Positions 33,942 to 37,344 of a DNA stretch of 64,000 nt are shown here, piece by piece. Position numbers and translations under genes: made by a program. Under the pieces are notes generated by a model. It was given only the letters and a program-made list of their open reading frames with translations. It was not told where the DNA came from and ran no database searches. Positions within the stretch are counted from its first letter, which is position 1. The number at the start of each line of letters is the position of its first letter. The stretch spans positions 124,001-188,000 of the forward strand of contig NZ_AJLN01000047.1 in NCBI RefSeq assembly GCF_000317285.1, given 5' to 3'. The DNA is from Chlorogloeopsis fritschii PCC 6912. GTDB taxonomy: Bacteria > Cyanobacteriota > Cyanobacteriia > Cyanobacteriales > Nostocaceae.

Positions 33942-34198
33942 TCTTACTCATATTTAATCTGGCAAAGATTCTCTTGTGCATATCTTTCAATATCGAAAGT
34001 AGAATCATTACTTTCTAATATTACCTTCTTGGGATATATTGCTACTAGTTCCTAGCTAACATGATAGGAAATCGCATTATGAGGAAGGCTAAGTGCTTCT
34101 AAAATAAGTTGTTGTATTTTCACGACGATTGAATAATGTGAATCTCAGTAATTAGTGATTAACTACAAAATTTTAGGAATAAATTCCAGAAATATTTG

Positions 34199-34618
34199 CT
34201 ACCCAGAAAGATAGTTTTCTAATTCTGTTAAAAGTGGATCGATGGTTTTTTTTTGAATTACGTGTGGTGGATTCCAAGCCATCCATGTATAGCCACTGTG
34301 TTCGCTAGTTTTTACAATTACTTCGTTTTTCAGCCAAGCCAAAAATATCACAACTGTTTTTTCTTTTTTCTTACCTTTCAATCGCTTGTGACGAATTCTA
34401 TAAGTGACAGCAAACCGAAACTTCTCATCTAACTCAATGTCATTAGCTGTAATTCCTGATTCTTCAAACAATTCACGTAAAGCACAACTAATTTCATTCT
34501 CACCTGGTTCAATATTACCTTTTGGTAAATCGTAAGAGTTAGGTTTCAACAGAAGCAAAAAACTCATCTGTGGCTGCGATCGCATGACAATTACACCACA
34601 GGATTTTTTCTTTTGCAT
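34199..34618 (-). CDS. Nudix hydrolase, diadenosine-polyphosphate type
   Basis: A 139-residue Nudix protein. The Nudix box GNIEPGENEISCALRELFEE plus SGI matches GX5EX7REUXEEXGU with all catalytic Glu residues. The N-terminal KSCGVIVMR and LPKGNIEPG resemble the asymmetrical bis(5'-nucleosyl)-tetraphosphatase subgroup. Proposed substrates are Ap4A or damaged nucleotides. I chose the ATG at 34618; a TTG at 34624 would add two residues. The gene starts 25 bases after the AAA+ gene on the same strand and is likely co-transcribed with it. Confidence 0.88.
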   Translation of the reverse strand: MQKKKSCGVIVMRSQPQMSFLLLLKPNSYDLPKGNIEPGENEISCALRELFEESGITANDIELDEKFRFAVTYRIRHKRLKGKKKEKTVVIFLAWLKNEVIVKTSEHSGYTWMAWNPPHVIQKKTIDPLLTELENYLSG

Positions 34619-34642
34619 TTCCAAAGTCTGTGGTTTTACTAC

Positions 34643-35845
34643 TTAAACAAATCGATGGGTAAACTCATATATTAAATCAACTCTACCCTTACGTAACATG
34701 GCTGGATCTAATCTTTCAGTTGTGTTGCAAGTCATTAATATAACTAACCGCTGCCGCATTTGAATACCAGAGTCATCAATTACGCTCTGATACAAGGTAC
34801 CATCCAATAAACTTAAAATATGCTCGGTTTTATTACTATATTGAGCAACCTCGCTAGCACGATTTTGAGCTAAATTATCGGCCTCATTAATAATAATACA
34901 AATTCGCTCTAAATATGTGGGTGGTACAAAATTAGCGATCGCGTCATGATCCAAAATAAAAATTACATATCCAAGCGGTACAAGAATTTCTTTGGCAACG
35001 GCTTGTGTCCATGCAGTTTTACCTGTTCCTGGTTCGCCATGTACTAACACTGCTAATTGATTTTGATTGAGAATTGCCTGCTGTACTGCATCACTAAAGC
35101 TTTGAATATCTTCAGGAAAACTCCGAATGGGAAATTGGTTGTGAATCTTACCCACACGGCTTTGATATCCACTCAGCATCACTGCTAAATCGTAAGTTGC
35201 TTTGTTAATTAATGGTGATAAATCTTTTGCCATTAAAGTATATTGCCGTCGCCCTCGCTCGTAGGAATCAATTTGCAGCCAAACGTCCTCTTGAGACCAA
35301 TAACTATAAACTGTATTTATCACATCCAAGCGTTCCCAACTGATAAATTTTTCAACAGGAAAATACAAGTCTCTTTCTAAGTAATATTGAGTGATAATAT
35401 CAGGACGCCCTAACAAATGTAAAACCCGCATTACAGTTATTTCTTGGAGGCGATTGAGAACGTAATCAATTGGAATACTGTTGCGACTTACAAATTGAAC
35501 GATAGGAGTTTCTGTACTCAAAATATCTTTATAACGATAATCTGGCGCTAGTGGATCTGGCGTAATATAATTCCAGAATTTCTCAAACTCGTAACGTGTA
35601 TTATCTGAAGCAATATTCAAAAAATTTGCCCACCAGGCATAATGATTGCGCCCTAAAGTTTCTGCAATATTACTGACTAAATTTAATGTTTTTTGAGTTA
35701 ACTCCTGCGTGTCTTTAAACACCAGTTGTCCTAAAAACTCCCAATTGAACTCCCGATGGAAAGGACGCCAGCCACTAGCGAGTAAGCTTTGACGGTTATT
35801 ATTTATAGGAGAGCTTTCATTGTTTCTAAAATATTCAAATTCCAT
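34643..35845 (-). CDS. AAA+ ATPase with variant Walker B, partner of Nudix gene
   Basis: A 400-residue protein. The first 250 residues are a helical, aromatic-rich domain with no recognised family (HREFNWEFLGQLVF, RNHYAWWANFLNIA). The AAA+ module follows: Walker A GEPGTGKT at 270-277; Walker B reads ICIIINEAD with Asn320 where the Mg-binding Asp should be, then Glu321; sensor 1 Asn374 in MTCNTTERLDPAML, and an Arg finger candidate in RKGRVD at 385-390. The AAA part resembles the BCS1/26S-type clade. Asp-to-Asn might slow ATP hydrolysis. The gene and the Nudix hydrolase form a two-gene unit. Confidence 0.85.
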   Translation of the reverse strand: MEFEYFRNNESSPINNNRQSLLASGWRPFHREFNWEFLGQLVFKDTQELTQKTLNLVSNIAETLGRNHYAWWANFLNIASDNTRYEFEKFWNYITPDPLAPDYRYKDILSTETPIVQFVSRNSIPIDYVLNRLQEITVMRVLHLLGRPDIITQYYLERDLYFPVEKFISWERLDVINTVYSYWSQEDVWLQIDSYERGRRQYTLMAKDLSPLINKATYDLAVMLSGYQSRVGKIHNQFPIRSFPEDIQSFSDAVQQAILNQNQLAVLVHGEPGTGKTAWTQAVAKEILVPLGYVIFILDHDAIANFVPPTYLERICIIINEADNLAQNRASEVAQYSNKTEHILSLLDGTLYQSVIDDSGIQMRQRLVILMTCNTTERLDPAMLRKGRVDLIYEFTHRFV

Positions 35846-36564: not shown

Positions 36565-37344
36565 ATGACTCGCATTATTGTCATTACATCGGGCAAAGGC
36601 GGTGTGGGTAAAACCACAGTGACAGCTAATTTGGGTGTAGCTCTAGCTAAAATGGGCTATCAAGTAGCATTAGTTGATGCCGATTTTGAATTGAGAAATT
36701 TAGATTTGCTGCTAGGACTGGAAAAACGTATAGTTTACACATTGTTCGATGTTTTAGCTGGAGAATGCCGTTTAGAGCAAGCTTTGGTGAAAGATAAACG
36801 GCAGCCGGGTTTGGTACTCCTGCCGGTAGCACATAAACGCGCCACAGAATCAGTTGATCCAGAGCAGCTAAAGTCACTGTTAAACAACTTGGCACAGAAG
36901 TATCAATTTGTGCTCCTGGATAGCCCAGCAGGTATTGACATTGGATTTAACAATGCGATCGCTGCTGCCACCGAAGCGATAGTTATTACTACACCAGAAA
37001 TTTCCTCAGTGCGTGATGCAGCTCGTGTGATCAGATTGCTGGAAGACAAAAAAGACATCAAATCAATTCAATTAATCGTTAACCGTATTAGACCTGGAAT
37101 GGTACGGGATTTCAATATGATGTCGGTAGAAGATGTTCAAGAACTTTTGGCAATTCCGCTATTGGGATCGATTCCTGACGATGAGCGCGTAATAGTTTCT
37201 ACCAATCGCGGCGAACCTTTAGTATTCACGGGAGGCAAATCAGGGGCTGCTATAGCTTTTGAAAAAATTGCTCGCAATCTACAACAAAAAGCAGAAGTAC
37301 AAAGTCAGGATATGACTTTAACCTTGGGGAATTTTTTCGCGTAG
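36565..37344 (+). CDS. minD: MinD-family ATPase (orphan)
   Basis: A 259-residue ParA/MinD ATPase. The deviant Walker A GKGGVGKT is at 10-17, the A' motif in VALVDADFELRNLDLLLG and the B motif in FVLLDSPAGIDIG; the rest (VITTPEISSVRDAARVI, VNRIRPGMVRDFNMMSVED) is typical MinD. MinD controls septum placement with MinC and MinE. Neither minC nor minE is adjacent, unlike the usual cyanobacterial minCDE order. The C-terminus ends TLTLGNFFA, shorter than the usual amphipathic membrane-targeting helix. So it may be a second MinD-like paralogue or a truncated copy. Confidence 0.85.
   Translation: MTRIIVITSGKGGVGKTTVTANLGVALAKMGYQVALVDADFELRNLDLLLGLEKRIVYTLFDVLAGECRLEQALVKDKRQPGLVLLPVAHKRATESVDPEQLKSLLNNLAQKYQFVLLDSPAGIDIGFNNAIAAATEAIVITTPEISSVRDAARVIRLLEDKKDIKSIQLIVNRIRPGMVRDFNMMSVEDVQELLAIPLLGSIPDDERVIVSTNRGEPLVFTGGKSGAAIAFEKIARNLQQKAEVQSQDMTLTLGNFFA

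Follow-up and report, generated by a model that had tools for sequence, protein, structure and literature searches.

A conserved family of cyanobacterial AAA+ proteins may well work with KptA in NAD+-dependent RNA end-healing, a claim that we hold with middling confidence. The main partner of the AAA+ gene is kptA, which encodes an RNA 2'-phosphotransferase, an RNA-repair enzyme; it is not the Nudix hydrolase gene that adjoins the AAA+ gene in the window (the whole stretch of DNA that was analysed, 64,000 nucleotides from Chlorogloeopsis fritschii PCC 6912). The family combines a characteristic residue pattern and a missing lid with tight, same-strand linkage to kptA, and an RNA ligase, a Nudix hydrolase and a YjoB-like AAA+ protein are its patchy companions. 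No description of an AAA+ family tied to kptA was found in the literature searched. The AAA+ gene and its landmarks in the window are the following:

34643..35845, minus strand: AAA+ gene, 400 aa, with an N-terminal domain (about residues 28-245), an AAA core (about residues 250-395) and no C-terminal lid
35111..35764, minus strand: N-terminal domain, residues 28-245, predicted as helices followed by a beta-rich part (AF2 pLDDT 88.2)
35015..35038, minus strand: Walker A GEPGTGKT, residues 270-277 (Gly270 and Pro272-Lys276 in 183/183 sequences, Thr277 in 182/183)
34883..34888, minus strand: Walker B Asn320-Glu321, with Asn at the position of the consensus Asp in 183/183 distinct orthologues
34682..34726, minus strand: sensor 1 Asn374 to the arginine-finger candidates Arg385/Arg388 (second region of homology)

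The open reading frame, with GEPGTGKT, IIINEAD and Asn374, was found at the places given in the initial annotation. Residues 266-395 match the Pfam family AAA (PF00004) at E 7.7e-13 (49.5 bits against a cut-off of 21.2), and the Walker A, sensor 1 and second region of homology with its arginine fingers are all present; the Walker B, however, reads Asn-Glu instead of the Asp-Glu of PF00004. The N-terminal half had been described as matching no known family, and for residues 1-240 Pfam listed no match, whatever its score, that would name one. Asn320 is present in 72/72 full-length orthologues of a first set and in 183/183 distinct sequences of a wider set, which stand for 222 full-length copies after 11 of 233 loci (short, broken or cut) were dropped. 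Across these 183 orthologues Asn320, Glu321, Lys276, Asn374, Arg385 and Arg388 are invariant; the landmark residues as a whole are kept in 182-183 sequences, the sole variant being Thr277Ser in one of them. Because it is invariant in every distinct orthologue, Asn320 is a family trait. The private mutation that an Asp in relatives would have indicated is ruled out, as is a sequencing error, for none of the 183 sequences carries Asp.

Among the 192 genomes of the window's family (f1 in our family codes), the AAA+ gene was detected at E ≤ 1e-80 in 178 and at any score in 188; ten genomes hold weak AAA-core matches alone and four hold none. Beyond the window's family, orthologues occur in many families of its order, and outside the order at least two further families of the class have them (f22 and f27); the relatives are all cyanobacterial among the matches listed (80 of 269). 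A few genomes hold stop-bearing copies (e.g., L050, L077 and L078), from which it follows that some genomes can dispense with the gene. A paralogue of FtsH or Cdc48 was rejected as an explanation, as all matches apart from orthologues and broken pieces of them reach the AAA core weakly, at E 6e-7 at best, and are widely separated in score from the orthologues. An Arthrobacter plasmid match that seemed to reach the N-terminal domain is FtsH-like by its sequence, and so is a Paraburkholderia match. Carriage by phages or viruses was likewise rejected (the matches in 12 phage records are confined to the AAA core, and viral contigs gave no match), and so was a defence system, for which PADLOC gave weak AAA-core matches alone (TRIP13 at E 4e-8, and IetA).

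As judged from the sequences and the predicted model, the C-terminal helical AAA+ lid is absent from essentially the whole family, because the chain stops 10 residues past the GR[VI]D motif in 219/222 copies; in the window the C-terminus lies 12 residues past Arg388, and the AF2 model has no helices past the GR[VI]D point. By comparison, C6, the YjoB-like second AAA+ protein, extends for about 96 residues beyond its arginine-finger motif. The core is also shortened between Walker A and Walker B, where the spacing is 42 residues in 222/222 copies as opposed to 51 in two FtsH proteins of the window genome; it is 47 in 24/25 C6 proteins. A truncated gene or a split-off lid was ruled out, given the same end in 219/222 copies and no conserved lid gene behind them. 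The absence of the lid had escaped the initial annotation. ATP hydrolysis may still occur, because Glu321 and the arginine fingers are kept, and the structural question posed by the protein is how an intact P-loop and arginine fingers work without a lid and with an Asn in the Walker B.

To identify the neighbours of the gene, open reading frames were clustered at 148 distinct AAA+ loci more than 7 kb long, drawn from the 183 distinct sequences. At 61/148 loci kptA is present, always on the AAA+ strand (41 upstream and 20 downstream), and at 48 it lies within 1.5 kb, with a median gap at these nearer loci of 80 bp upstream and of -2 bp, an overlap, downstream. KptA matches PF01885 at E 3e-52 and NF002014 above its cut-off, and its LRH motif and further Arg positions are conserved across the 61 locus copies. 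Outside the window's family kptA lies within 1.5 kb at 48/63 loci, and no other protein family does so at more than 11; within the window's family it lies within 1.5 kb at 0/85 loci and further out in the flank at 13. At five loci (L244, L073, L251, L252 and L254) kptA begins inside the AAA+ reading frame or right where that frame ends (offsets of -37 to +18), an arrangement that suggests coupled translation of the two genes there.

An order-wide Pfam search gave the same association at the level of genomes, with kptA found in 125/238. In the order sample, 86 genomes have both genes; in 77 of them the two lie within 1.5 kb, on the same strand in 77/77; kptA precedes the AAA+ gene in 62 and follows it in 15. 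The table of AAA+ against kptA (both, AAA+ only, kptA only, neither: 86/22/39/91) gives a Fisher p of 1e-14, a value that is uncorrected for phylogeny and for which the order of listing was used to infer which negatives belonged to the sample. A control set of 20 kptA loci, taken from genomes that lack the AAA+ gene, showed no widely recurrent neighbour, the most recurrent being one ABC-transporter family at 6 of 22 loci compared; one locus of this control (L307) has the usual kptA surroundings and lacks the AAA+ gene. The window genome has its kptA on a different contig (C151), and in the window's genus the two Nudix-bearing genomes have kptA and the third has neither. Since 178/192 genomes of the window's family keep the AAA+ gene, kptA lies within 1.5 kb at none of the 85 loci there, and 22/108 AAA+-bearing genomes of the order sample lack kptA altogether, the AAA+ protein can do without kptA; conversely, 39 genomes of that sample have kptA without the AAA+ gene.

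The genes behind and beside the AAA+ gene in the window are the following:

34199..34624, minus strand: Nudix hydrolase, 141 aa from a TTG start (ATG at 34618), with a full Nudix box (NUDIX PF00293, E 3.2e-15)
33947..34126, minus strand: decayed C6 remnant of about 60 codons (66-70% identity), interrupted by an in-frame stop, immediately behind the Nudix gene
36565..37344, plus strand: MinD/ParA-type ATPase, a divergent neighbour that belongs to the surroundings and lies outside the module

The Nudix open reading frame that the initial annotation had placed 24 bases behind the AAA+ gene was confirmed, the gap being 24 nt to the ATG and 18 nt to the earlier TTG. By a simplified pattern, the Nudix box (GX5EX7REUXEEXGU) is found in 17/19 members of this Nudix family, the window's included. 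The two others, the adjacent Nudix genes at L157 and L267 (42-44% identity), have a changed box in which DEL replaces REL, and because of this change their products may be inactive as hydrolases. At another locus (L259) the AAA+ gene is followed by two tandem Nudix copies. In the window's family this Nudix gene was detected at E ≤ 1e-14 in 22/192 genomes, and in 19 of these 22 it lies less than 1 kb downstream of the AAA+ gene on the same strand (a tally of 18 of 20 typed coordinates plus G154), the exceptions being G022, where the genes are 15 kb apart, G049 and G083. Adjacency also recurs in other families, with the order reversed in f10 and f59, where the Nudix gene is directly upstream. 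The proposed pairing of AAA+ protein and Nudix hydrolase thus holds as a recurrent adjacency; the Nudix gene as the main partner does not, given 22/192 genomes with it against 178/192 with the AAA+ gene. In the order sample this Nudix gene was detected at E ≤ 1e-12 in 37/291 genomes, and among the 21 genomes with both genes they lie within 1.5 kb in 10, all on the same strand and 7 with the Nudix gene upstream. A Nudix gene is present at 19/148 loci, a count that is not a rate, for four of these loci (L263, L265-L267) were chosen for their Nudix gene. Altogether, the pairing looks real but secondary, with the Nudix hydrolase as a frequent helper of the same set.

A DRB0094-type RNA ligase (TIGR02306 above its cut-off) is present in some sets only, at 11/148 AAA+ loci, always upstream and on the same strand, and no family match to it was found in the window genome. 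C6 has a lid and a Glu-Asp Walker B, and its best PDB match is YjoB (E 7e-49); because its remnant lies right behind the Nudix gene in the window, the ancestor of the window probably had the order AAA-Nudix-C6. The MinD/ParA-type gene occurs at 8/148 loci, for example in Fischerella (L082) and Westiellopsis (L130). A vWA-like protein, a ThiF-type protein and DUFa, a 280-aa protein without a Pfam match, flank the kptA-AAA pair at L210, L211, L213, L215, L218, L245, L250 and other loci. As candidate parts of the module these three were rejected, for in some families they look like chromosomal surroundings held in common, and at one locus they persist although the AAA+ gene is missing.

The N-terminal domain was predicted with AF2 from 92 sequences (pLDDT 88.2), and the full-length model has a mean pLDDT of 73.9. 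With the whole model, the best ten Foldseek matches in the PDB were all Bcs1 (best E 2e-13, TM-scores near 0.3), and VIA-align gave YjoB (7w42) at Z 13.7 and rmsd 4.7 with 236 residues aligned over residues 97-396, a score tied with many Cdc48 and proteasome rows. For the N-terminal domain alone, Foldseek returned no row at E ≤ 0.001, and in VIA-align Bcs1 took 8 of the first 12 rows with weak scores (Z 4.0-4.9, 4.9 being the best overall). A known fold was therefore not assigned, which in itself does not prove a new one. The weak likeness lies in the beta part, which aligns to the Bcs1-specific domain at the same position before the AAA core, and we take this model-based likeness to Bcs1 as a lead. 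The beta-rich domain directly before the AAA core may thus be shared with Bcs1 and YjoB; unlike them, the protein is without the C-terminal lid and has an Asn where their Walker B carries an acidic residue, its N-terminal likeness is weak, and by sequence its AAA core scores higher with Cdc48. Bcs1 is further characterised by a membrane anchor and a heptameric ring. There is a general class of degenerate AAA+ subunits whose P-loop site is intact apart from an altered Walker B. The family resembles lid-less or degenerate subunits of this kind in the altered Walker B, but it keeps all other catalytic landmarks, and its chain stops before the lid in essentially all members.

Three other accounts of these loci were weighed against work with KptA. 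The lidless Asn-Walker B protein could be a non-catalytic subunit of a mixed ring with C6, the RNA work being either the task of that ring or incidental; C6 lies downstream on the same strand at 25/148 AAA+ loci, within 1.5 kb at 24 of them, it is YjoB-like with the long extension past its arginine-finger motif, and the window retains its remnant behind the Nudix gene. However, 123/148 loci are without C6 in the flank, and the C6 of the window genome is broken, with only distant AAA-core matches elsewhere in that genome, which excludes C6 as an obligate partner throughout the family. A profile comparison of the two proteins also finds the AAA core but no convincing alignment of the N-terminal domains, and the idea that these domains are homologous was set aside; we consider the mixed ring unlikely. 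The initial annotation had proposed that the AAA+ protein is a slowly hydrolysing switch that may gate or recruit the Nudix hydrolase. The close spacing in 19 of the 22 Nudix-bearing genomes of the family and the reversed order in f10 and f59 are in favour of such a switch, but most AAA+-bearing genomes lack this Nudix gene. Nor do the two genes always stay together, as joint function had been expected to entail: the Nudix gene can leave the AAA+ gene and yet remain beside other members of the set, as at 3 of 21 distinct separated loci that were compared, where a Nudix gene of the nearer relatives adjoins kptA (L281), C6 (L280) or DUFa (L274). A shared pathway fits these three loci better than direct gating. 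The other 18/21 separated loci have no module neighbour in the flanks seen, and most of them fall into a Nudix group that is less closely related (46-50% identity, families f11 and f58); among the nearer relatives, L170/L264 (G049) has no module neighbour. We therefore give the Nudix switch little credence.

Slightly less probable again is that these genes are neighbours kept together by descent without any joint function. On a tree of the AAA+ protein (88 rows; a quick tree with SH-aLRT support only, on which gain is indistinguishable from loss), kptA adjacency occurs in 48 rows with 11 gain/loss changes and 2 up/down changes, as descent would predict, and in some families the genes for DUFa, ThiF and vWA come along together as one block. 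By contrast, the RNA ligase shows 7 changes in 7 rows, C6 8 in 8 and the Nudix gene 9 in 12; from these counts kptA is the stable part of the set, and the other companions come and go. Against simple inertia, kptA stays, always on the same strand, while other neighbours turn over, and in genomes that lack the AAA+ gene no neighbour of kptA recurs widely. Both gene orders also occur, with overlapping reading frames at several loci.

The family is best read as a scaffold or chaperone, gated by nucleotide, that would serve the KptA-dependent healing of RNA while the Nudix hydrolase clears ADP-ribose products. Conservation of the P-loop and of the arginine fingers points to assembly that depends on ATP, and the missing lid together with the Asn suggests weak or conditional turnover. 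The protein would bind ATP and, through its arginine fingers, assemble with itself or with the second AAA+ protein, C6, into a ring or scaffold; its ATP turnover would be slow or confined to a mixed ring, and its N-terminal domain would grip an RNP, KptA or RNA that is damaged or has been ligated. In genomes that have it, the Nudix enzyme would degrade either the ADP-ribose product or RNA ends that carry ADP-ribose. With kptA on a separate contig, the parts would act in trans in the window genome. A passage in PMC9503650 describes a viral KptA-Nudix fusion and proposes that Nudix processes the ADP-ribose product of KptA, and a KptA-Nudix link appears in passages of PMC9503650 and PMC7824862; if the fusion is taken in this way, the gene set reads as RNA end-healing plus product clearance. 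No link between KptA and an AAA ATPase was found in the literature searched, although an earlier mention in an RNA repair review (10.1093/nar/gkw722) is possible, and the cyanobacterial passages of two KptA papers do not deal with this linkage. Searches for an AAA protein with a Nudix hydrolase in heterocyst cyanobacteria, for the Walker B Asn and for YjoB returned nothing useful. The loci resemble KptA/Tpt1-centred RNA repair sets in that KptA, a Nudix hydrolase and, at a minority of loci, a DRB0094-type RNA ligase occur in the same neighbourhoods as the AAA+ gene; they differ in that the AAA+ family is the gene most tightly tied to kptA, with tight same-strand kptA in 77/86 genomes that have both, though not at the window's own locus. 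Put more specifically, and only tentatively, the lidless AAA+ protein could be the missing cofactor of cyanobacterial KptA, one that would deliver 2'-phosphorylated RNA or RNPs under ATP gating while a Nudix hydrolase clears the unusual product, ADP-ribose phosphate.

KptA/Tpt1 is widespread in bacteria. Its natural bacterial substrate is called a longstanding conundrum in a passage of PMC6333775, which also reports that deletion of kptA leaves the growth of E. coli unaffected. An AAA+ family that adjoins kptA across many cyanobacterial families offers a concrete partner for functional study, and the cofactor reading, if true, would make the long-sought physiological role of bacterial Tpt1/KptA accessible.
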